A stretch of DNA of 39,597 nucleotides, taken from a virus. The stretch lies in the IMG/VR virus record IMGVR_UViG_3300046171_000164, positions 1 to 39,597 of that record; one strand, given 5' to 3'. A program made the position numbers and the translations under genes. Positions 18,993-28,322 of the stretch are shown in pieces (the stretch's first letter is position 1; the number at the start of each line of letters is the position of its first letter). The notes beneath the pieces are model-generated. The model saw only the letters and a program-made list of their open reading frames with translations. It ran no database searches and was not told the DNA's origin.

Positions 18993-21900
18993 ATGTTTGA
19001 ATTAAACGGTGAAACTGTAACAGGTGAAATGCTTCAAGCAGCTGCAAAAAAATACAATATGTCTTACGACGAGTATTTAGTTAAAATGAAAGAAAAAGGT
19101 TTAAAAGATCTTGATGCATTTGAGGCGCCAGAAATATCTCAAACTTCGCAAGACATCGTTAAAACTACTTCGCTTACTGACGATGAAATAGCTGACATTA
19201 ACACTAAGTTTGGAACAGATGAAAACCCTAATTTTGAATATTTACAAAAAAAGGAAAGAGCTCCAGGCTGGGGATTTTCAATGGAAGAATACTACGATTA
19301 TGAAGAAGATTTAAATTATAGCAAAGGCCAAATTGAAAATATTAAAAAACAAATTGTCAAAAAAAATCCAAACTACACACAAAAAGAAATTGACAGAGCA
19401 ATATTATCAGAATTAAAACACGCATATACTGTATCTACCTACGGTAAAAAAATGGATAAAAATATAATGGATACCTTAATGGTTCCTGTTAAAATTCCTG
19501 GTATAGGAATAACACCTGATATAACTGTAGATACGCCTTATAAAGCTAAATTTGAAAAACAAAAAGAAATTGTACAAAAAGACGTAGATAATTATTTAAA
19601 CGTAAGTGATTTTGTAAATAAAGAATACGATTCAGCTCAAGAAATAAAAAGTAATGTTGATAATTTTATGTTAAATATTGATAATAAAGATTATCAATTT
19701 AATATTGATGGATTACAAAATAATGAATTAATTCAATTAAAAGACGGAAGATTATTATCAATTTATGATTATAATAACTTTTTAAATAATATTAAAGATT
19801 TTAATGCTAAACAAGAAGCTATTCAAAAAAGAATGCCTTATTTACAAGAATCTTCAAAAACATTTGATCAATTAGCAGTAGCTGCAGATTATTTAGGAAG
19901 AGATTATGATTTGTCAAAAAAGTTTGCGGTATTTACAGGTTTAGATTTTGTTAGCTTAGCTAAAAATTTCAGTGCACAAACTATAAGAAGCATGGGGGCT
20001 GAAGCTGTGTTAGGATTAATGGAAGGCAAAAGCGAAGGACAAACTTATAGAGAAAAAGGTATTGAAATGCTGGATACTGTAGATGTTGGATGGGATGATT
20101 TAACAACCGGTATTAAAAGAAAATATGCACCTGATGTAAAATTTAAGGATGCATTTAAAGAAGGAAACTTTGGTAGATTTTTTGCTCAAGAACTTTCGTC
20201 ACAAATACCTATTATTACAACAATGATTGGAAGTGGTGCTATAGCAGCTAGATTTGGAGCCACGGCATTAGGGCAAGCGGCAGCTTCTGGTACAGCTATA
20301 GGTACAGCTTCTGCGGGGGAACAGTTTGCTAGAATGACAGTTGAAGATGTAAATAATCCTTTTATATCTTATAGTAATGGTGAGAAATTTTTAACAGCTG
20401 CTGGATATGGTGCTGCTGAAGGGCTATTAGGTACAGCACCATCTTATTTATTTTTAAAAGGAACTTATGGCGCTTTAACTGGCAATACAAGAAAACTTTT
20501 TGGAGACTCTGTAAAAACATATTGGAAAAATCAAATATTGATTCCTCCAATAATTGAATCTGGGTCTGAGGCGTTAACTCAATGGACTCAAAATAAAATA
20601 ACAGGTAGACCTGCTTTTGAGGGTATAGATCATGCTGCTTTTTCAGGAGCTATGTTTGGTTTATTAATGAATTCAGCGCCAGCTATAGCAGGTACATATA
20701 TGCAAAAATTTGGCGATATAAAGCAATATGAAACGTTTAGAAATAATGTTAATGAAATGCAGGCTATTAATATTGAATTAGGTGTTGAGGGTATAGGGCC
20801 TAAGATGGACACAAATTCAGTTGAAGCAAATTCTTTGTCAGCAAGATATGATGATTTATATAGGCAAAATATCGAAATACTAAATGGTATAAATAATAAT
20901 ATACAAAATAAAGTAAGCAAATATGCTTTTCAAAATTACTTAGATATAACCACAAGGCAGGAAAAATTAAGAGCTGAAGCAGAATCTATAATGAACAGCG
21001 ATTTAAGCTTTTTTCAAAAAGAAAAAGCTATAAAAAAATTACAAGGTCAATTCAATTTATTGCAAAGTGTAAGAGATAGATTCAGAAACACTGATACATA
21101 CGGTAATGAATTTAGCTTATTAGAAGGTACAAATAAAACTGCTTATGATAATTATTTTATTAAAGCTAAAGAAGAATTAGGGCCAGATACTGTTGAATCT
21201 TCATTATTTGAAAAAGCTTCTGAATTATATTTTTCTGATGTATATGACCAATCATTGGCTAATTTGCCTAAGGATGCTTATAGGTATGAAACATTATCAT
21301 TTAATACAAATGAAGCTCTTTTAAACTATATAGAAACAAATAATGTAACTTTACCAGCCGATGTTATAGAAGGTATTAATAATGGTAATTTAAATGGGTT
21401 TGAAACAAATGTTAATGGTAAATCAATACAGATTTTATCAAAAGAAAATTCTGTAAAAAATGAAAGAGCCGGAACAGGTTATCATGAAATGTTCCACGGT
21501 GCATTATTTGAATCATTTGGAAAAGCAGATTATACCGACGTAGCCGAGTATATCATTAATTGGACAAAAGCTAATGCGCCTAAAATGTATAAACAAATGT
21601 TTGAGGGTGTTGGTACACAGGTGGCTGATATAACAAATGCAGAAGAAATTGTTGTTAACTTTTTAGAAAGAGTAGCGGAAGGTAAAATAAAATATCAAGA
21701 AGTTGTTAAAAATAAATCTTTCTTAGGGGCGTTGTCAAATATACTTAGTTTAAAGTCTGGTCTTAATCAAAACTTTAAAAGTCAAAATGATGCTATAAAT
21801 TCATTAATAAATTTTGCTAGTAAAATAAAAGACGGCACATTTAAAAAAGGTGATATTAAAGCAATAAAAGTTGATTTAAAAGATGCAATTAAAAAAGCTG

Positions 21901-24900
21901 ATCAAACAATATTAAATATACCAAAAATAAATAAATCCGATGCTAACGCTATACAAACTATGTTTAATAACAAAGGTGAGAATGCAGTATTTGAAATAGC
22001 AGCTAATAAATACATTGATAAAGTACTAAAAAATATTTCAAATAAGTATAGAGATGTTCCTAAGTATAATGAAATGAAAGAAGATTTTGAATTAGCTTTA
22101 ATTTCAGATCCAACTTATGGCATATTAGGTTCTTTAATGGTATATGATGTTAAGAAAAATCCTGTATTAGCTTCTCATATAATTGATAGATTAAAAAAGA
22201 AAAGCATAACAATTGCTGAAAAAATATTTGAAACTAAATTTACAGAAGATGTTAGTGTTGCTAAAAAAGTTGTTAGTGATGTTACTGATCCTGAAATACT
22301 TCAGCAAAGAGAAAGCTTAAGAACTAGTTTAGGTTTAACACAGTCTGTGGTTGATAAAGTAAAAAATGCTGTTGTAAAAACATTTGGTACAAAATTACCT
22401 AGTGTTGATTCTAAAACATTTAGAAAAAAATTACAAGACGCATATAGAGTAGAGTTAAAACCTACTATTGCCACAATGATAGGCAGGCAAGATGCTTATA
22501 GAAGTTTTTTAGAAGATAATTTTGAACTAATATATATTATTTTACCGCAATCAACACTTAATAAAAGATTTAAAGATTTTATAGAACCTATTGTAGATGA
22601 AACTGGAAAACAATTAAGAGAAAAAACAGCAGAAGGCAAGAAAGTATTTAAGAAAAAGAAAATAACAAAGAATGAATTTGTAAATTATTTTTTAGGCGAT
22701 AATGTGGGGGCATCTACAAAAGGAACTAGAAAAACAGCATTAGCTGAAGCATTAGCCCAAGAAATAGCATTTGATGCGACGTTAGATGTACTAAGGCAAC
22801 CGGAAATATATAACAAAGTAAAAACTATTTCGGAAATGCAAGGTCATCAATTTAATGACAATTATATATCACAGGTTGCAAAAGAAATTGATAGAGCTAC
22901 AGACTTTAAATTTAGTGATTCTGGAATTACTCAGTTATTAGAAGATAATAATGGAGAAGTATTGCAAAGTGATTTTCCTGCTTTTTGGAATTCTTTAATA
23001 GAAAACCAAGGTAAATACGATATAAACGTTAAAGAAAGAAAAGGCCAAGCGCTAGAATATTATGTAGCTAAAAATATAGAAGCACTAGTAAATGGTTCTG
23101 AAATAACAAACATAGAAGAACTTAAGGTGTTAAAGCTAGGTAATACTGGTATTGATGTTCAGTTTAAATTAAACGGTAAAGAATATGGCTTTGAAATTAA
23201 AGATAAAATTTCTGATAGAATTGGCTCTGTAAATGGGTTAGAAAATATAAATAAAACTTATAAAGGGGAACTTTTAAATAATATTATTAATGCAAAAGAT
23301 ATTATTACTGAAAGAATATTAAATAAATATAAAGAAATAACAGGTAAAGATGCTGAAGTAAACTCTAAAACCGGTGCTATAACTGTAGATAAAACTGTAA
23401 ATGGTGTTGATATTTTAAAACTATTAGGCAATATAAAAAATGAAAAAATTATAGTAAAAGGCACTAGACTTTTATCAGATTTTTATACTAATAAGGGTGA
23501 TCAATATATGTATTTTGATGATATAGGGTTATTTTCAATTGCAACAAATCCATTAGCATTAAATGTTCCAAGCATATTGGATTTAAACTTAAATACATTG
23601 ATTAATGTAAATATAGCTTCAACAAAAAGTACAGACAGCAAAAGAACACTAACCGTAAGAGCTAGATTAAATTTTGAAAAACCAACTAAAAATAAAATAG
23701 TTGGCGCACCGTTAGAAATACTTACAGATATAAATAAAAGTGAATCTATTAAAGTTGATTTAGACAAAACAATCAATGAAATAATTGAAAGAAAAACAGG
23801 TATAGAATTTTATAAAGTATATTCAAAAGCAAAAGGTGAATTAGTTGGTAAAAAATTTGGAAAAGGAAATGTATTTATACCTTGGTCAGCTGAAGATTTT
23901 ACAGGATTTTTATATGCATTTGCTGGTAAAGGTAAACAAGGCAATGCTGATTTAAAGTTTTTCAATGAACAACTTCTTAGGCCATACAATGCTGCAATGG
24001 CTAAAATAAATAATGAAAGAATGCAGCTTATGGACGATTTTGATAAGTTAAAAAAGGATATTAATTCAGTTCCTAAAAAACTTAAAGAACAAATTCCAGG
24101 TGAGCCGTTCACGTATTCACATGCTATAAGAGTGTTTGCTTGGACAAAAGCCGATTATGCTATTCCTGATTTATCTGCTAAAGATACAAAGTTATTAAAT
24201 GATATAGTTAAAAAAGACCCTGACTTATTAAAATTTGCTAATACTTTAATTAATATAAACAAAATTGAAGGCTATCCTAAGCCTGAAAATGGCTGGTTAG
24301 CTGGTAATATAAAAACAGATTTATACGGTAGTTTAAATAAAGAAAAAAGATCTAAGCATTTAGAAGAATGGCAACAAAATGTTGATATTATATTTTCTGA
24401 AAAGAATAAAGCTAAAATGAGAGCAGCGTTTGGAAATGAGTTTGTATCCAACGTTGAAAAAATGTTAGTAAGAATGCGAACTGGCAAAAATAGAAAGCCA
24501 GGTGGAAATAAAATGATTAATGGATGGTTAGATTGGATTAATGGCTCAGTTGGTGCTATCATGTTCGTTAATATGCGTTCTGCTATTCTACAAACTATTT
24601 CGACTGTTAACTATATAAATTGGTCTGATAATAATTTATTAGCAGCTTCTAAAGCGTTTGCAAATCAACCGCAATTTTGGTCAGATTTTAAATTTATATT
24701 TAATTCAGATTATTTAAAAGAAAGAAGAGGAGGATTAAAGCTAAACGTACAGGAAAGCGAATTAGCAGATGCCGCATCTAAATCAGGTGTAAAAGGTGTA
24801 ATATCTTATATATTAAAACAAGGATTTTTACCTACAAGAATAGCAGATAGTTTTGCAATATCTTCTGGTGGTGCTAGTTTTTATAGAAATAGAATTAAAA

Positions 24901-25775
24901 AATACACAAAAGAAGGATTGTCACAGAAAGAAGCGGAAACAAAAGCATTTCAAGATTTTATGGCTTTAACTGAAGAGTCACAACAATCATCTAGACCCGA
25001 CAGGATATCAGAACAACAAGCAAGTAATTTAGGTAGATTATTATTAGCTTTTGCTAATACACCTATGCAATACAATAGAATGATAAAAAGATCCGGTCAA
25101 GATTTAATAAATGGAAGAGGGGATTGGAAAACAAATGTATCTAAAATTACTTATTATAGTTTTATACAAAACTTAATATTTAACGCATTACAAAAGGGTA
25201 TATTTGCATTAGGATTTGGAGATGACGAGGTTGATGACGAAAAGAAAAAACAAAAATATATTCAAATAAGCGAAGGCATGGTTGATTCTTTATTAAGAGG
25301 GGTTGGGATAACTGGGCAAATAGCTATGTCAGCAAAAAATGTTTTAAAAAATGTTATTGTTGATGGCGAAGTAAAATTGCTTGATGCATTATATGATTTA
25401 TCGCCACCTATAAATTCTAAAATTAGTAAATTAAAATCTGCTGAATATCTAGCTAAATATACTAGCGAAGAAGAACTTAAACAATTAAGTATTAGGAATC
25501 CTGGTTTAATGGCTGTAGCATATGTTCTTTCTGCTATAGCTAATTTCCCACTAGATAGAGCAGTAAGAAAAACGCATAATTTAGAATCAGCAATGAGTGA
25601 AGAAACGGAAGTGTGGCAAAAAATAGCATTAGTACTTGGTTGGAACGAATGGGAATTAGGTGTTGGACCTGAAGCTGAAAAACAAAAAGAAAAAGTTGGC
25701 CCAAGGTCGGATAATTTTAGAAAATTAACTAGAGAAAAAATAAATAAAAGAATAGAAAAAATAAGAAATAGATAA
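18993..25775 (+). CDS. Giant internal virion protein with zincin-like and nuclease-like motifs
   Basis: 2260 residues, the largest gene. The start (FELNGETVTGEMLQAAAKKY with NMSYDEYLVKMKEKGL) is a short domain I recall at the front of giant phage proteins. About 330-530 is Gly/Ala-rich with hydrophobic stretches. HEMFH at 831-835 fits the HExxH zinc-protease motif. D1388 with E1401-I-K1403 (GIDVQFKLNGKEYGFEIKDK), after a GQALEYYVA helix, fits a PD-(D/E)XK nuclease core. About 1845-2095 (MFVNMRSAILQTISTVNYIN, GFLPTRIADSFAISSGG, LLLAFANTPMQYNRM) resembles the C-terminal domain of large polyvalent phage proteins. It is probably packaged in the head and ejected into the host, like T7 gp16 or crAss cargo proteins. 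No lysozyme or transglycosylase motif was found. Confidence 0.75.
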   Translation: MFELNGETVTGEMLQAAAKKYNMSYDEYLVKMKEKGLKDLDAFEAPEISQTSQDIVKTTSLTDDEIADINTKFGTDENPNFEYLQKKERAPGWGFSMEEYYDYEEDLNYSKGQIENIKKQIVKKNPNYTQKEIDRAILSELKHAYTVSTYGKKMDKNIMDTLMVPVKIPGIGITPDITVDTPYKAKFEKQKEIVQKDVDNYLNVSDFVNKEYDSAQEIKSNVDNFMLNIDNKDYQFNIDGLQNNELIQLKDGRLLSIYDYNNFLNNIKDFNAKQEAIQKRMPYLQESSKTFDQLAVAADYLGRDYDLSKKFAVFTGLDFVSLAKNFSAQTIRSMGAEAVLGLMEGKSEGQTYREKGIEMLDTVDVGWDDLTTGIKRKYAPDVKFKDAFKEGNFGRFFAQELSSQIPIITTMIGSGAIAARFGATALGQAAASGTAIGTASAGEQFARMTVEDVNNPFISYSNGEKFLTAAGYGAAEGLLGTAPSYLFLKGTYGALTGNTRKLFGDSVKTYWKNQILIPPIIESGSEALTQWTQNKITGRPAFEGIDHAAFSGAMFGLLMNSAPAIAGTYMQKFGDIKQYETFRNNVNEMQAINIELGVEGIGPKMDTNSVEANSLSARYDDLYRQNIEILNGINNNIQNKVSKYAFQNYLDITTRQEKLRAEAESIMNSDLSFFQKEKAIKKLQGQFNLLQSVRDRFRNTDTYGNEFSLLEGTNKTAYDNYFIKAKEELGPDTVESSLFEKASELYFSDVYDQSLANLPKDAYRYETLSFNTNEALLNYIETNNVTLPADVIEGINNGNLNGFETNVNGKSIQILSKENSVKNERAGTGYHEMFHGALFESFGKADYTDVAEYIINWTKANAPKMYKQMFEGVGTQVADITNAEEIVVNFLERVAEGKIKYQEVVKNKSFLGALSNILSLKSGLNQNFKSQNDAINSLINFASKIKDGTFKKGDIKAIKVDLKDAIKKADQTILNIPKINKSDANAIQTMFNNKGENAVFEIAANKYIDKVLKNISNKYRDVPKYNEMKEDFELALISDPTYGILGSLMVYDVKKNPVLASHIIDRLKKKSITIAEKIFETKFTEDVSVAKKVVSDVTDPEILQQRESLRTSLGLTQSVVDKVKNAVVKTFGTKLPSVDSKTFRKKLQDAYRVELKPTIATMIGRQDAYRSFLEDNFELIYIILPQSTLNKRFKDFIEPIVDETGKQLREKTAEGKKVFKKKKITKNEFVNYFLGDNVGASTKGTRKTALAEALAQEIAFDATLDVLRQPEIYNKVKTISEMQGHQFNDNYISQVAKEIDRATDFKFSDSGITQLLEDNNGEVLQSDFPAFWNSLIENQGKYDINVKERKGQALEYYVAKNIEALVNGSEITNIEELKVLKLGNTGIDVQFKLNGKEYGFEIKDKISDRIGSVNGLENINKTYKGELLNNIINAKDIITERILNKYKEITGKDAEVNSKTGAITVDKTVNGVDILKLLGNIKNEKIIVKGTRLLSDFYTNKGDQYMYFDDIGLFSIATNPLALNVPSILDLNLNTLINVNIASTKSTDSKRTLTVRARLNFEKPTKNKIVGAPLEILTDINKSESIKVDLDKTINEIIERKTGIEFYKVYSKAKGELVGKKFGKGNVFIPWSAEDFTGFLYAFAGKGKQGNADLKFFNEQLLRPYNAAMAKINNERMQLMDDFDKLKKDINSVPKKLKEQIPGEPFTYSHAIRVFAWTKADYAIPDLSAKDTKLLNDIVKKDPDLLKFANTLININKIEGYPKPENGWLAGNIKTDLYGSLNKEKRSKHLEEWQQNVDIIFSEKNKAKMRAAFGNEFVSNVEKMLVRMRTGKNRKPGGNKMINGWLDWINGSVGAIMFVNMRSAILQTISTVNYINWSDNNLLAASKAFANQPQFWSDFKFIFNSDYLKERRGGLKLNVQESELADAASKSGVKGVISYILKQGFLPTRIADSFAISSGGASFYRNRIKKYTKEGLSQKEAETKAFQDFMALTEESQQSSRPDRISEQQASNLGRLLLAFANTPMQYNRMIKRSGQDLINGRGDWKTNVSKITYYSFIQNLIFNALQKGIFALGFGDDEVDDEKKKQKYIQISEGMVDSLLRGVGITGQIAMSAKNVLKNVIVDGEVKLLDALYDLSPPINSKISKLKSAEYLAKYTSEEELKQLSIRNPGLMAVAYVLSAIANFPLDRAVRKTHNLESAMSEETEVWQKIALVLGWNEWELGVGPEAEKQKEKVGPRSDNFRKLTREKINKRIEKIRNR

Positions 25776-25777
25776 TT

Positions 25778-25909
25778 ATGGCAAAAGACGCGTGTTATAA
25801 AAAAGTAAAAGCAAGGTATAAAGTATTCCCATCAGCATATGCTAGCGGCGCTATTGCAAAGTGTAGAAAAGTTGGCGTTAAAAATTGGGGTAACAAATCT
25901 AAAAAATAA
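25778..25909 (+). CDS. Tiny basic Cys-containing protein (43 aa)
   Basis: 43 residues from the ATG three bases after the giant gene: MAKDACYKKVKARYKVFPSA, then YASGAIAKCRKVGVKNWGNK and SKK. Two cysteines are 23 residues apart; Lys and Arg make up a third of the protein. The pattern DACYxKVKxRYKVxPSAYASGAxxxCRKxGxxNWG is one I recall from small proteins of cyanophages, other marine phages and large algal viruses. Function is unknown. It starts a run of five overlapping or nearly overlapping basic genes. Too short for most gene finders. Confidence 0.75.
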   Translation: MAKDACYKKVKARYKVFPSAYASGAIAKCRKVGVKNWGNKSKK

Positions 25910-25913
25910 TATT

Positions 25914-26099
25914 ATGAAAGGTGTTCCACATTTTAAAAAAGACGGTACTATATTTCACGGTGCCACACACAAAGATGCTAAAGGTAAATTAATGTCTGGT
26001 AAAACACATACTAAAAGAAGTGTATATGTTTACCATATAAATGAATTACCTAAAAAATCTTTAATGAAAGCATATAAACAAGCTAAACTATTAAAATAA
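25914..26099 (+). CDS. Tiny basic protein, 'KDGTxxxGxTHKD' type (61 aa)
   Basis: 61 residues from the ATG at 25914; an upstream in-frame ATG at 25839 lies inside the preceding gene and adds unrelated sequence. The core is MKGVPHFKKDGTIFHGATHK, DAKGKLMSGKTHTKRSVYVY, then a Lys-rich helix. Short proteins with this KDGT...HK...MSGKTHTK pattern occur in marine phages and large algal viruses. I know no function for them. The stop overlaps the next start by one base (TAATG), so translation is coupled. Confidence 0.75.
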   Translation: MKGVPHFKKDGTIFHGATHKDAKGKLMSGKTHTKRSVYVYHINELPKKSLMKAYKQAKLLK

Positions 26100-26380
26100 T
26101 GGCTGAACCTAAAAAAGGTACAGGTAAAAAACCTAAAGGCAGTAGTAGACGTTTATATACAGACGAAAATCCGAAAGACACAGTTAGTATTAAATATGCT
26201 AGTGTAGCTGACGCTAATGCTACATGCAGAAAGGTTATGGGATCTAGTAAGTCTTTTGCTAGAAAAATACAGATATTAACTGTAATGGAACAAAGAGCTA
26301 GATACGGTAAAAAACCTAAACAATCTAAAATAGCTACGGCTTGTAAAAATAAAATAAGAAGAAAACATGGCAAAAAATAG
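26099..26380 (+). CDS. Small basic protein, 'GRRLYTDENPxDT' type (93 aa)
   Basis: 93 residues. A flexible basic start (MAEPKKGTGKKPKGSSRRLY) leads to TDENPKDTVSIKYASVADAN, then FARKIQILTVMEQRARYGKK and a basic end (ACKNKIRRKHGKK). The RRLYTDENPxDTVxIKxAxxxDA core followed by ARKIQILTVxEQRA is a recognisable small family in marine phages and large algal viruses, with unknown role. The next gene begins 14 bases before this one ends. The strongly basic ends suggest nucleic-acid or virion binding, an inference only. Confidence 0.78.
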   Translation: MAEPKKGTGKKPKGSSRRLYTDENPKDTVSIKYASVADANATCRKVMGSSKSFARKIQILTVMEQRARYGKKPKQSKIATACKNKIRRKHGKK

Positions 26381-26615
26381 ACCAACCTGGAAAGATTCGG
26401 ATGCTCCAGATGCTAATGGTAAATTTAAAGAGTTATCTTGCGGTGCATTAGCTAAATGGATGATTAAATCTAGAAAAGGTAACATGCGTAAAATTGTTGG
26501 CAGTTTAAATCAACAATATGTTTTTAATAGAAAAAAGAACCCTAGCTATGCTAAGAAAATGGTATGCGCTAGAAATAAAGCTAAAAAGTTAATAAATGGC
26601 AGTAAGAAAAACTAA
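26367..26615 (+). CDS. Small basic protein, 'SLNQQ.VFNRKK' type (82 aa)
   Basis: 82 residues. The core reads LSCGALAKWMIKSRKGNMRK, then IVGSLNQQYVFNRKKNPSYA and KKMVCARNKAKKLI. The SRKG..RKI.GSLNQQ.VFNRK..P.YA.KM pattern is shared with small proteins in large algal viruses and marine phages, as far as I recall. Function is unknown. It overlaps its neighbours on both sides (14 and 20 bases), which argues that all are translated from one message. Confidence 0.75.
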   Translation: MAKNRPTWKDSDAPDANGKFKELSCGALAKWMIKSRKGNMRKIVGSLNQQYVFNRKKNPSYAKKMVCARNKAKKLINGSKKN

Positions 26616-26874
26616 AAAAGGCGCTTCACTTAAACGTTGGTTTAAAGAAAAGTGGATAGATGTCAGAACTGGTAAGCCTTGCGGTAGACGTGCGGGTGAA
26701 AAGCGTGGTACACCATATTGTAGACCAAGTAAAAGAATATCATCTAAAACTCCAAAAACATCAGGTGAAATGTCAGCATCTGAAAAAGCAAAAAAGATTA
26801 AAGAAAAGAAATCTTTAGGACAACCAGCGGGTAAACCAAGAAGAGTTAAAAATGTTAAAAGAAGAAAAAAATAG
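26596..26874 (+). CDS. Small basic protein, 'LKRWFKEKWxDVxTGKPCGR' type (92 aa)
   Basis: 92 residues, about 35% Lys and Arg. The core is SLKRWFKEKWIDVRTGKPCG, then RRAGEKRGTPYCRPSKRISS and TPKTSGEMSASEKAKKIKEK, with a basic C-terminus. I recognise the motif, RWFKEKWxDVxTGKPCGRxxGEKRGxPxCRPSKR, as a domain of unknown function (I believe DUF5872, not checked) shared by tailed phages and large DNA viruses of algae. Its two cysteines could bind metal. It is the last of the five-gene basic cluster and overlaps the gene before it by 20 bases. Confidence 0.78.
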   Translation: MAVRKTKKGASLKRWFKEKWIDVRTGKPCGRRAGEKRGTPYCRPSKRISSKTPKTSGEMSASEKAKKIKEKKSLGQPAGKPRRVKNVKRRKK

Positions 26875-26906: not shown

Positions 26907-27188
26907 ATGGCACAAAAAATATCAGAAGAAACGGAAGTAAAACTTGACTTGAAAACGATCGGGATGATCATAGGCGGAGCTATTGCTTTAGCCGCAACTT
27001 ATTTCACTTTAACGGCTGAGATAGAGCTTGCAAAAGAATTACCAAAACCAGATATATCTAGAACTGAGTTCGATTTAAAAGACGAATTAATTCGTTCGAC
27101 AATAATTGATATTGACGAAAAGGTAGACAAAAATGCAGAAAAGCTTGACAAAATAGATGAAAAGCTCTATGAGCTAACAAAAAAATAA
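26907..27188 (+). CDS. Small membrane protein 1 (holin/spanin candidate)
   Basis: 93 residues. One membrane segment at about 17-37 (TIGMIIGGAIALAATYFTLT) is followed by TAEIE and a charged coiled coil at about 65-92 (IIDIDEKVDKNAEKLDKIDE). The cytoplasmic front is short. It is a paralogue of the gene at 27537: both share LD(L/I)K, a Gly/Ala membrane helix and the exact string FTLTAEI. With the endolysin 0.7 kb on, it is likely part of the lysis cassette, as holin, antiholin or membrane-anchored spanin. Its codons are richer in G/C than those of its paralogue. The exact role is unresolved. Confidence 0.65.
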   Translation: MAQKISEETEVKLDLKTIGMIIGGAIALAATYFTLTAEIELAKELPKPDISRTEFDLKDELIRSTIIDIDEKVDKNAEKLDKIDEKLYELTKK

Positions 27189-27190
27189 AT

Positions 27191-27535
27191 ATGAAAAATT
27201 TAATTACTTTAATTTTATTATTATTTACATCAATTTCATTTTCACAAGAAATGACAGTATTATATATGAATTCATCATGGAATTCTAGAAATCATTATAA
27301 AGATGTAGATAAATTAAAAAGAGCAACAATTTTAAAAGTAAATTTTGAAGATCAACCAGTAAGTATAAGAAAAGCAATTAGATCAGTACCGGCAATTATA
27401 ATATTAAAAAATGGTAGACCTGTTGCTACATGGCAAGCGGATTTATCTATGCAATTAAAAGTACGCTATGAAGATGTACAAAATGTAATTGATGGTGCGG
27501 TTGTTCCTAGATTAAGAAGAGTATCAACAAATTAA
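27191..27535 (+). CDS. Secreted thioredoxin-fold-like protein lacking redox cysteines
   Basis: 114 residues. Residues 1-19 (MKNLITLILLLFTSISFSQ) are a clear Sec signal peptide with a Bacteroidetes-type end (SFSQ). The mature part follows the thioredoxin order: strand MTVLYMN, then SSWNSRN (28-34) where WCxxC would be, then ATILKVNFEDQP. The cis-proline loop is SVP at 65-67, followed by AIIILKNGRPVATW. There is no cysteine at all, so it cannot be a redox enzyme. It sits between two membrane-protein paralogues and before the endolysin, so a periplasmic role in lysis or its timing is plausible. The fold call is from pattern, not alignment. Confidence 0.55.
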   Translation: MKNLITLILLLFTSISFSQEMTVLYMNSSWNSRNHYKDVDKLKRATILKVNFEDQPVSIRKAIRSVPAIIILKNGRPVATWQADLSMQLKVRYEDVQNVIDGAVVPRLRRVSTN

Positions 27536-27536
27536 T

Positions 27537-27851
27537 ATGTCAGAACTCACAGAAAAATCAAAAGTATCGTTAGATATCAAAGCAGTAATTGGGGCAGTAT
27601 TTGGTATTGTATCAATTGCTGGTGTTTGGTTTACACTAACAGCTGAAATAGCACAATTACAATTAGATGTAATTAGAATGCAAGATGCTGTAGCACTTAA
27701 TGAAGAATTTAGAATTAAATGGCCAAGAGGAGAAATGGGTGCTTTACCAGATGATGCTAAACAAGATTTAAGAATAATGTATTTGCAAGAAGATGTTGAA
27801 ACATTAAAAGAAGTTGTTAAGAAGTTAGAAATAGACAACGCAAAAAAATAA
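27537..27851 (+). CDS. Small membrane protein 2 (paralogue; holin/spanin candidate)
   Basis: 104 residues. A membrane segment at about 14-34 (IKAVIGAVFGIVSIAGVWFT) leads into LTAEIAQLQLDVIRM and a long coiled-coil region (LQEDVETLKEVVKKLEIDN). The FTLTAEI junction is identical to the protein at 26907. This copy has a longer middle section, KWPRGEMGALPDDAKQDLRI. A single membrane helix with an exposed coiled coil fits a pinholin, antiholin or inner-membrane spanin. It is followed seven bases on by the endolysin, which supports a role in lysis. Confidence 0.65.
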   Translation: MSELTEKSKVSLDIKAVIGAVFGIVSIAGVWFTLTAEIAQLQLDVIRMQDAVALNEEFRIKWPRGEMGALPDDAKQDLRIMYLQEDVETLKEVVKKLEIDNAKK

Positions 27852-27857
27852 AATTAA

Positions 27858-28322
27858 ATGAAAAACATAAGCGAGCATATCTCATATAAAGAGGGTGTGT
27901 ATAGCATTACTGCTTTGAGATTAGGTTTAAATAATGATCCAACAAAAACTCATTTAACTAATATGGAATTATTAGCTGAAAAGATTTTTGAACCATTAAG
28001 AAAGCATGTAGGCGGACCAATAAAAATAAATTCATTCTATCGCGGACCTGAATTAAATAAAGCAATCGGTGGGAGTTCTAATTCACAACATTGTAAAGGC
28101 CAAGCAATTGATATTGATGATGTGTATGGTTATATGAGTAATGCTGATATGTATGAATATATAAAGAATAATTTATCGTTCGATCAGATGATATGGGAAT
28201 TTGGAAATTCTGACAACCCAGATTGGATTCATGTAAGTTATGTAAATGAAGAAGCTAATAGAAATAAATGCTTATTAGCATATAAAGACGAAAATAATAA
28301 AACAGCTTATAAAGTAATATAA
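27858..28322 (+). CDS. Endolysin, M15-family peptidase
   Basis: 154 residues with Peptidase_M15 zinc-site spacing. INSFYRGPELNKAIGGSSNS leads to QHCKGQAIDID, where H78 and D85 are zinc ligands. Then MIWEFG with E114 as likely general base, and DWIHVSY with H125 as third ligand. Such enzymes cut peptide cross-links in peptidoglycan (D-Ala-D-Ala or L-Ala-D-Glu type). There is no signal peptide, so it needs the membrane proteins upstream to reach the wall. The length is normal for single-domain M15A endolysins. It is the last plus-strand gene before the bidirectional terminator. Confidence 0.88.
   Translation: MKNISEHISYKEGVYSITALRLGLNNDPTKTHLTNMELLAEKIFEPLRKHVGGPIKINSFYRGPELNKAIGGSSNSQHCKGQAIDIDDVYGYMSNADMYEYIKNNLSFDQMIWEFGNSDNPDWIHVSYVNEEANRNKCLLAYKDENNKTAYKVI

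Follow-up and report, generated by a model that had tools for sequence, protein, structure and literature searches.

The DNA analysed here, hereafter called the window, is the whole of the 39,597-nt virus record IMGVR_UViG_3300046171_000164. A total of 40 genes were tabulated in it, and its terminase, portal and virion genes are akin to those of Flavobacterium, Cellulophaga and Tenacibaculum phages. A preliminary description of this DNA reported five overlapping or near-abutting genes for tiny proteins, and we confirm their positions and lengths. All five lie on the plus strand: P1 (25778–25909, 43 aa), P2 (25914–26099, 61 aa), P3 (26099–26380, 93 aa, the 'RRLYTDENPKDT' protein), P4 (26367–26615, 82 aa) and P5 (26596–26874, 92 aa, a member of Pfam family DUF5872). 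A gap of 4 bases separates P1 from P2, and overlaps of 1, 14 and 20 bases join P2 to P3, P3 to P4 and P4 to P5. In agreement with the earlier mention of cysteines in four of the proteins, P1, P3, P4 and P5 contain two cysteines each and P2 none. The content of 30–40% basic residues proposed at the same time was slightly high, as lysine and arginine make up 30, 25, 29, 27 and 37% of P1 to P5, respectively, with additional histidines in P2. The proteins are nevertheless strongly basic: they are the top five by basicity among the 40 genes of the window, with a net charge of +0.20 to +0.30 per residue, the next protein reaching +0.12. The median dN/dS values against relatives (P1, 0.12; P2, 0.09; P3, 0.19; P4, 0.13; P5, 0.22) reveal purifying selection and thus indicate that P1–P5 are genuine conserved genes.

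This gene set, which we call the kit, is flanked by genes that do not belong to it. Directly 5' of P1, a gene for a 2,260-aa protein (18993–25775, plus strand) occupies the position of the giant 'structural protein' of Flavobacterium phage elemo, as judged by gene-order comparison. Located 3' of P5 are lysis-type genes (26907–28322, plus strand). Two of them encode small proteins that probably contain a membrane segment, and the others encode a thioredoxin-like protein and an endolysin of the peptidase M15 type (phrog_894, 1.4e-30; Peptidase_M15_3, 4.2e-15). The thioredoxin-like protein (27191–27535; weak Pfam match, E 0.013) looks secreted, and its gene, just 5' of that of the endolysin, is flanked by two small genes of one PHROG family, phrog_20984. 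Elsewhere in the window, just 5' of the terminase gene, a 197-aa gene (1865–2458) matches a GroES-type co-chaperonin family (phrog_13932, 4.3e-19), the same arrangement being present in phage elemo; at one of the other loci (L213), a GroEL gene adjoins the kit.

P1 carries the motif KDACYxKVKxxYxVxPSAYASG, of which the PSAY segment is invariant in 29 diverse members, and is the equivalent of the N-terminal half of DUF5872 (PF19197). P5 matches the C-terminal part of this Pfam profile with an E value of 3.7e-16 and 60.2 bits, for a cut-off of 27.5. The P1 of the window alone remains under the cut-off (14.1 bits, E 0.075), and other forms of P1 score 36–37 bits. The profile corresponds to P1 followed by P5, a P1+P5 fusion covers most of it, and the two are joined in one open reading frame at 5 loci; however, the halves that are contiguous in the profile are separate genes in the window, with P2, P3 and P4 between them. 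For P2, no trusted family match was obtained, a Pfam match to DUF1801 (E 0.0095) being below the cut-off and, like that of P1 to DUF5872, not used on its own. P3 contains 43 invariant columns in 27 diverse members, P4 contains 24 among diverse relatives, and certain W, G and C residues of P5 are conserved. Protamine-like DNA condensers are Arg-rich sequences of low complexity without fixed motifs, and the invariant columns of P3 and P4 distinguish these two proteins from that class. AlphaFold2 predicted a helical bundle for P4 (mean pLDDT 75.9) and a small mixed fold for P5 (mean pLDDT 72.8). The P4 model had no convincing match in the PDB, where the best Z score of 5.7 is typical for small helical bundles, and had one good match in BFVD, an uncharacterised phage protein. 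Sequence searches of the PDB with P1, P3, P4 and P5 gave nothing useful. P3 and P4 look similar by eye, but a homology between them was not supported by profile-profile comparison (probability 0.2%).

The preliminary description also mentioned relatives in cyanophages, and these are abundant. P1 was found in 366 of 50,697 phage records, nearly all of them T4-like cyanophages, with an identity of 80–90% in 124 records and of 60–80% in 241; the best matches are 80–85% identical to a segment of the cyanomyovirus T4-GC 119 proteins. Relatives of P3 are present in cyanomyoviruses, in pelagiphage HTVC033P and in Mosig, and at least 600 matching stretches were obtained in a scan of viral contigs. P5 was detected in five phage records (Prochlorococcus phage P-SCSP2, three roseophages and phage C72C1) and has relatives in hundreds of viral contigs, with at least 600 matching stretches in the same type of scan. 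P2 has relatives in roseophages CRP-207 and CRP-902 and at ∼74 viral-contig loci. P4 matched 115 viral-contig stretches and none of the phage records. Among ∼85,000 prokaryote species genomes, relatives of P5 were found at 8 loci, all on contigs that also carry other kit genes. A cellular origin of P5 was rejected, as all 8 belong to marine or other metagenome-assembled genomes and are most likely phage contigs binned with their hosts.

Co-occurrence was scored with profiles built from the fetched loci, and the counts that follow are those of loci and not of independent viruses, some loci being overlapping pieces of one contig. P1 is present at 251 of the 274 P5-bearing loci, and at 236 loci both are found within 1 kb. 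P1 adjoins P5 at 78 of 80 loci retrieved with P5 as bait and at 73 of 80 retrieved with the P-SCSP2 form. The 79 P4 loci include 54 with P1 and 52 with P5, and P1 or P5 is present at roughly 30–40% of the P2 and P3 loci, many of these contigs being incomplete at their ends. Co-occurring pairs in the tested bait groups are all on the same strand. A sixth family, DUF6321 (PF19846), is a frequent neighbour of both P1 and P5, although it was not found in the window. The constant company of the five genes that had been proposed earlier therefore holds beyond this phage lineage for P1 and P5, joined by DUF6321, whereas it holds in part for P2, P3 and P4, whose presence and order vary between loci; the exact order P1-P2-P3-P4-P5 was observed at ∼13 loci, which include overlapping windows of the same contig.

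Across these loci, the long gene most commonly found 5' of the kit encodes the head scaffolding protein, and the one most commonly found 3' encodes either the major capsid protein or some other protein of the head module (weakly a 'structural protein'). Portal, terminase and connector genes are also among the neighbours. The kit lies between the scaffold and major capsid protein genes in P-SCSP2, adjoins the gene for the terminase large subunit in CRP-7 and is near the terminase and portal genes in C72C1. In the window, it is located between the giant structural-type gene and the lysis genes, outside the capsid block. It is missing from the cultivated or complete relatives sharing the head-gene order of the window, in the stretches examined, and is thus dispensable to this lineage.

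In cyanomyoviruses, several of these families are modules of a single protein. T4-GC 119 (SSM1_115 in S-SM1 and SSM2_109 in S-SM2) contains P1, and a single protein of S-SM1 and S-SCSM1 is ordered P5-like, P1, DUF6321. A P3 relative heads the polyprotein of S-SM2 and Bellamy, and in 13 cyanomyovirus polyproteins such a module comes first or close to first. The order (P3-)P5/P5-like-P1-DUF6321 was found in 68 of the 82 cyanomyovirus-type open reading frames containing any of these domains, the P5-like assignment relying on a P5 profile match at 1e-3 in 18 cyanomyovirus-type frames and on motif only in the remainder. T4-GC 119 thus shares with the window P1 (80–85% identity at best), a P5-like module and sometimes P3, and contains DUF6321 as a further module. 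It differs in that a single long chain, in which linkers and Glu junctions connect the modules, takes the place of separate genes, and it is known only as a hypothetical or virion protein. Pelagiphage HTVC033P has separate P3, P5-like (recognized by eye) and DUF6321 genes in one run of small genes. One virus group thus encodes as a single chain what other groups encode as an operon.

The T4 prohead protease gp21 cleaves after L/I-X-E (PMC9026906), and the junctions between the modules of the polyproteins usually have the form [I/L/V/M]-x-E, which resembles this site. At the DUF6321 junction, a Glu is present at most 5 aa before the DUF6321 tryptophan in 74 of 74 unique junctions, the P3 position of the predicted cleavage site being often His (35 of 74), off the strict L/I-x-E rule. 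A Glu followed by a short K/G spacer precedes P1 in 66 of 68 junctions, and the P5-like junction reads [hydrophobic, Ala, Tyr or Gly]-x-E in 49 of 52, often after a Gly-Asn linker. These alignment-anchored patterns were defined after the alignments had been inspected, and the junction sequences are phylogenetically related. In a blunter test that was run first, any [ILVMF]-x-E within 22 aa was enriched before P1 (65 of 72, against a background of 34%), while there was little enrichment before DUF6321 (30 of 72), a junction that the alignment-anchored test alone set apart from background.

P4 homologues of large phages begin with N-termini of the type [FY]xx[FY][ILV]x(x)E, for example LSYSEFITEA or LSFEEYILNEA, directly followed by the P4 core, and in other homologues the core is the C-terminal part of a longer protein and is preceded by VNE or INE. 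What remains after the predicted cleavage matches the start of the stand-alone P4. For the families joined in polyproteins as for P4, the start of the stand-alone gene is therefore close to the predicted cleavage point. T4 internal proteins enter the head through an N-terminal targeting peptide of 10–19 residues that is removed by gp21 (PMC9026906), and the P4 homologues of large phages, in which a targeting sequence would be cut after a similar site, appear alike. Capsid-targeting-like N-termini are also carried by the neighbours of P4 at five large-phage loci (L229, L236, L240, L243 and L247; for example MEARIKSFSQFIGES and MYVKPFSEYVSLLEK), which suggests a whole cluster of internal proteins there.

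The distribution of the prohead protease family Peptidase_S77 (PF03420) runs parallel to that of the joined and tagged forms. It was detected in 7 of 10 records with such forms and then in 12 of 37 further records, mostly short fragments (19 in total), and in none of 58 stand-alone records (9 including the window, plus 49). The scan of 50 records that gave no match comprised these 49 and L164, a joined form with GG-type boundaries, and its positive controls come from the two other S77 scans. No PF03420 match was obtained in the window record, which may be incomplete. This distribution fits a model with two formats of delivery, although S77 presence is confounded with T4-like ancestry, the T4-like phages generally carrying the protease.

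Two virion proteomes include cyanophage homologues of the kit. The 517-aa protein 29 of S-SCSM1 (P5-like, P1, DUF6321; P1 match at 43286–43411) is annotated as 'virion protein', and mass spectrometry of the S-SCSM1 virion has been reported (PMC9602691). In the S-CREM2 virion proteome, ORF160 was identified with 7 unique peptides and ORF137 with 4 (PMC10665884 Table 3). The P1 match of S-CREM2 (129104–129226) falls inside ORF160, which consists of a P5-like module, a YEKKG module and P1, with LSE, LEE and ISE preceding modules, and ORF137 carries DUF6321. Both proteomes were obtained from CsCl-purified particles, where carry-over may occur, as the S-SCSM1 authors state for other proteins, and 'virion' does not mean 'head'. 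The location in the head proposed in the preliminary description is therefore supported indirectly, by these proteomes, by the capsid-targeting-like tags and by the head-gene neighbours, the stand-alone forms being known from their genes.

Taken together, these data make it probable that P1–P5 constitute a kit of small internal head proteins that bind the packaged DNA and are probably ejected with it. The proteins would be made late, alongside the virion proteins, go into the procapsid while it assembles and stay in the capsid with the genome, where their Lys/Arg-rich surfaces would bind the DNA, with which they would probably be ejected. In phages with Peptidase_S77, the mini-proteins would arrive either linked in a polyprotein (P3, P5-like, P1 and DUF6321) or, as for P4, with a capsid-targeting-like peptide in front, and cleavage after [I/L/V/M]-x-E would set them free. 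The phage of the window, like others where S77 was not detected, would provide each mature piece with its own gene and start codon. We infer the head location, actual cleavage, DNA binding and ejection, as well as their transfer to the stand-alone proteins of the window, from the observations above.

Among the closest known systems are the T4 internal proteins (IPI, IPII, IPIII and Alt), which are small and basic, except for the larger Alt, are made with the head and are kept with the DNA (PMC9026906, PMC3012670), their lysines touching DNA phosphates (PMC3012670). P1–P5 are alike in size and charge, as deduced from the gene sequences. However, the T4 proteins carry a targeting peptide and are cut by the S77-type protease gp21, whereas in P1–P5 of the window the conserved core begins right at the N-terminus, and the record gave no S77 match, the sites being present in the joined homologues. 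Moreover, the T4 proteins are divergent while those of the window are conserved across hosts, and in the searches made P1–P5 did not match any T4 internal protein. Cyanophages deliver the kit by a polyprotein, and the sources on T4 internal proteins (PMC9026906, PMC3012670) describe none. Among open-licence PMC articles, we found no literature linking cyanophages, a prohead protease and a polyprotein, none on DUF6321 and a single article on DUF5872. It has also been stated that there is no evidence that basic proteins do much to neutralise phage DNA (PMC3281028).

The preliminary description had suggested a single function for the five genes, perhaps DNA condensation in the head or host takeover. 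The proteins might be packaged and yet host-directed, as injected takeover or anti-defence factors similar to T4 IPI* or Alt, with DNA binding serving only for packaging. The T4 internal proteins are small, basic, head-carried and ejected, and at least two of them act on the host (PMC9026906, PMC3012670); the kit is also accessory and modular, its members being gained and lost as expected of effectors, and the many invariant residues of P3 and P4 suggest a specific binding partner. However, conservation is poor among internal proteins of the T4 type (PMC9026906). P1, in contrast, is 80–85% identical between a virus resembling Flavobacterium and Cellulophaga phages and the cyanophages, thus across host phyla, which is hard to square with a host-specific target unless this target is universal. 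Because the same sequences are kept across phages of flavobacterial-type and cyanobacterial hosts, the target should be invariant across hosts and is most simply DNA. A DNA-related function thus seems likelier than host takeover, and a head-packaged kit likely; of the two functions first proposed, the sequence comparisons favour the reading in terms of head and DNA, and we regard takeover as the less likely.

Capsid or neck components without a DNA role, such as cement, plug or scaffold-associated proteins, would agree with the scaffold, major capsid, connector, terminase and portal genes found around the kit, and with the conserved W, G and C and the small predicted fold of P5. Nevertheless, the charge of the five proteins, a membership that varies from phage to phage and delivery by polyprotein or tag are unlike a part of a symmetric shell, as are the several unlike modules of the cyanophage polyprotein, and this explanation is improbable. 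Slightly more improbable still is that P1–P5 act late within the cell as regulators or nucleoid-type proteins and are left out of the particle, the cyanophage detection then being a contamination. Regulators that bind nucleic acids are likewise typically small, basic and Cys-containing, and the particle detections concern the joined cyanophage forms only, but P1-bearing proteins are listed in two separate virion proteomes, and it is difficult to see what purpose the capsid-targeting-like peptides of P4 and the conserved sites of the prohead-protease type would serve outside a prohead. A chance cluster of short open reading frames without a shared function would agree with the frequency of short overlapping genes in phage genomes and with the absence of P2, of P3 and of P4 from many of the loci that have P1 and P5. 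Given the low dN/dS medians and the co-occurrence across unrelated viruses, such a cluster is hardly conceivable, and for P1, P3 and P5 the fusions and polyproteins have refuted it already.

Relatives in large DNA viruses of algae had been proposed as well, and such a link is supported through DUF5872 for P1 and P5, and so far for these two only; in the searches made, no algal-virus relatives of P2, P3 and P4 turned up. The annotation of the haptophyte virus CpV-BQ1 includes DUF5872 (PMC12085832), and a DUF5872 protein of Chrysochromulina ericina virus CeV-01B is among the weak matches of P5 in BFVD (E 0.096, 38% identity). The link with giant viruses thus consists of common membership of one Pfam family and a single weak match by structure. 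The NCLDV capsid family had no match among 50 fetched contigs, in a search run without a positive control. A functional parallel exists in a large algal virus, as A278L and A282L of chlorovirus PBCV-1 are basic virus-encoded proteins recovered with the virion DNA (PMC3281028). Both are, however, large proteins in which a kinase is fused to a different basic adaptor domain, and no relation of P1–P5 to these proteins was seen in the Pfam scan.

We tentatively propose, as a conjecture with somewhat less than an even chance of being correct, that one modular kit of virion-packaged, DNA-bound mini-proteins is common to aquatic viruses that are not related to one another (short-tailed phages, T4-like phages and, through DUF5872, algal giant viruses). 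It would exist in two interchangeable formats, separate genes where a T4-type prohead protease is lacking and a polyprotein cut in the prohead where one is present. If true, a genome-packaging protein set would be common to viruses of bacteria and of algae. Our results suggest that some phage heads may carry a processed set of DNA-associated basic proteins, the same across host phyla, and a testable function would follow for widespread unknown families (DUF5872, DUF6321, T4-GC 119 and the P1–P4 mini-proteins). The correspondence between polyprotein and operon would also constitute a natural experiment, in which start codons in one virus type lie near protease-type sites in another.

Some joined forms contain additional elements. 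Cyanomyovirus polyproteins, for example that of Bellamy (L439), have extra repeated modules between Glu junctions, among them CWxGYEKKGxxxxFGKxYxxCVKK and the His/Cys-rich CMHNHxGEECPVHGKK, each preceded by an L/I-x-E-like site; these are likely further members of the kit. Finally, in a 72.9-kb viral contig (L164:4927-10418), P5 is inside a 1,042-aa open reading frame and P1 inside a 773-aa one, with xGG motifs bounding the mini-domains. Elsewhere, a [KRSAE]GG stretch is located just 5' of 31 of 259 copies of P1 and 66 of 166 copies of DUF6321, possibly reflecting a second tagging or cleavage grammar.
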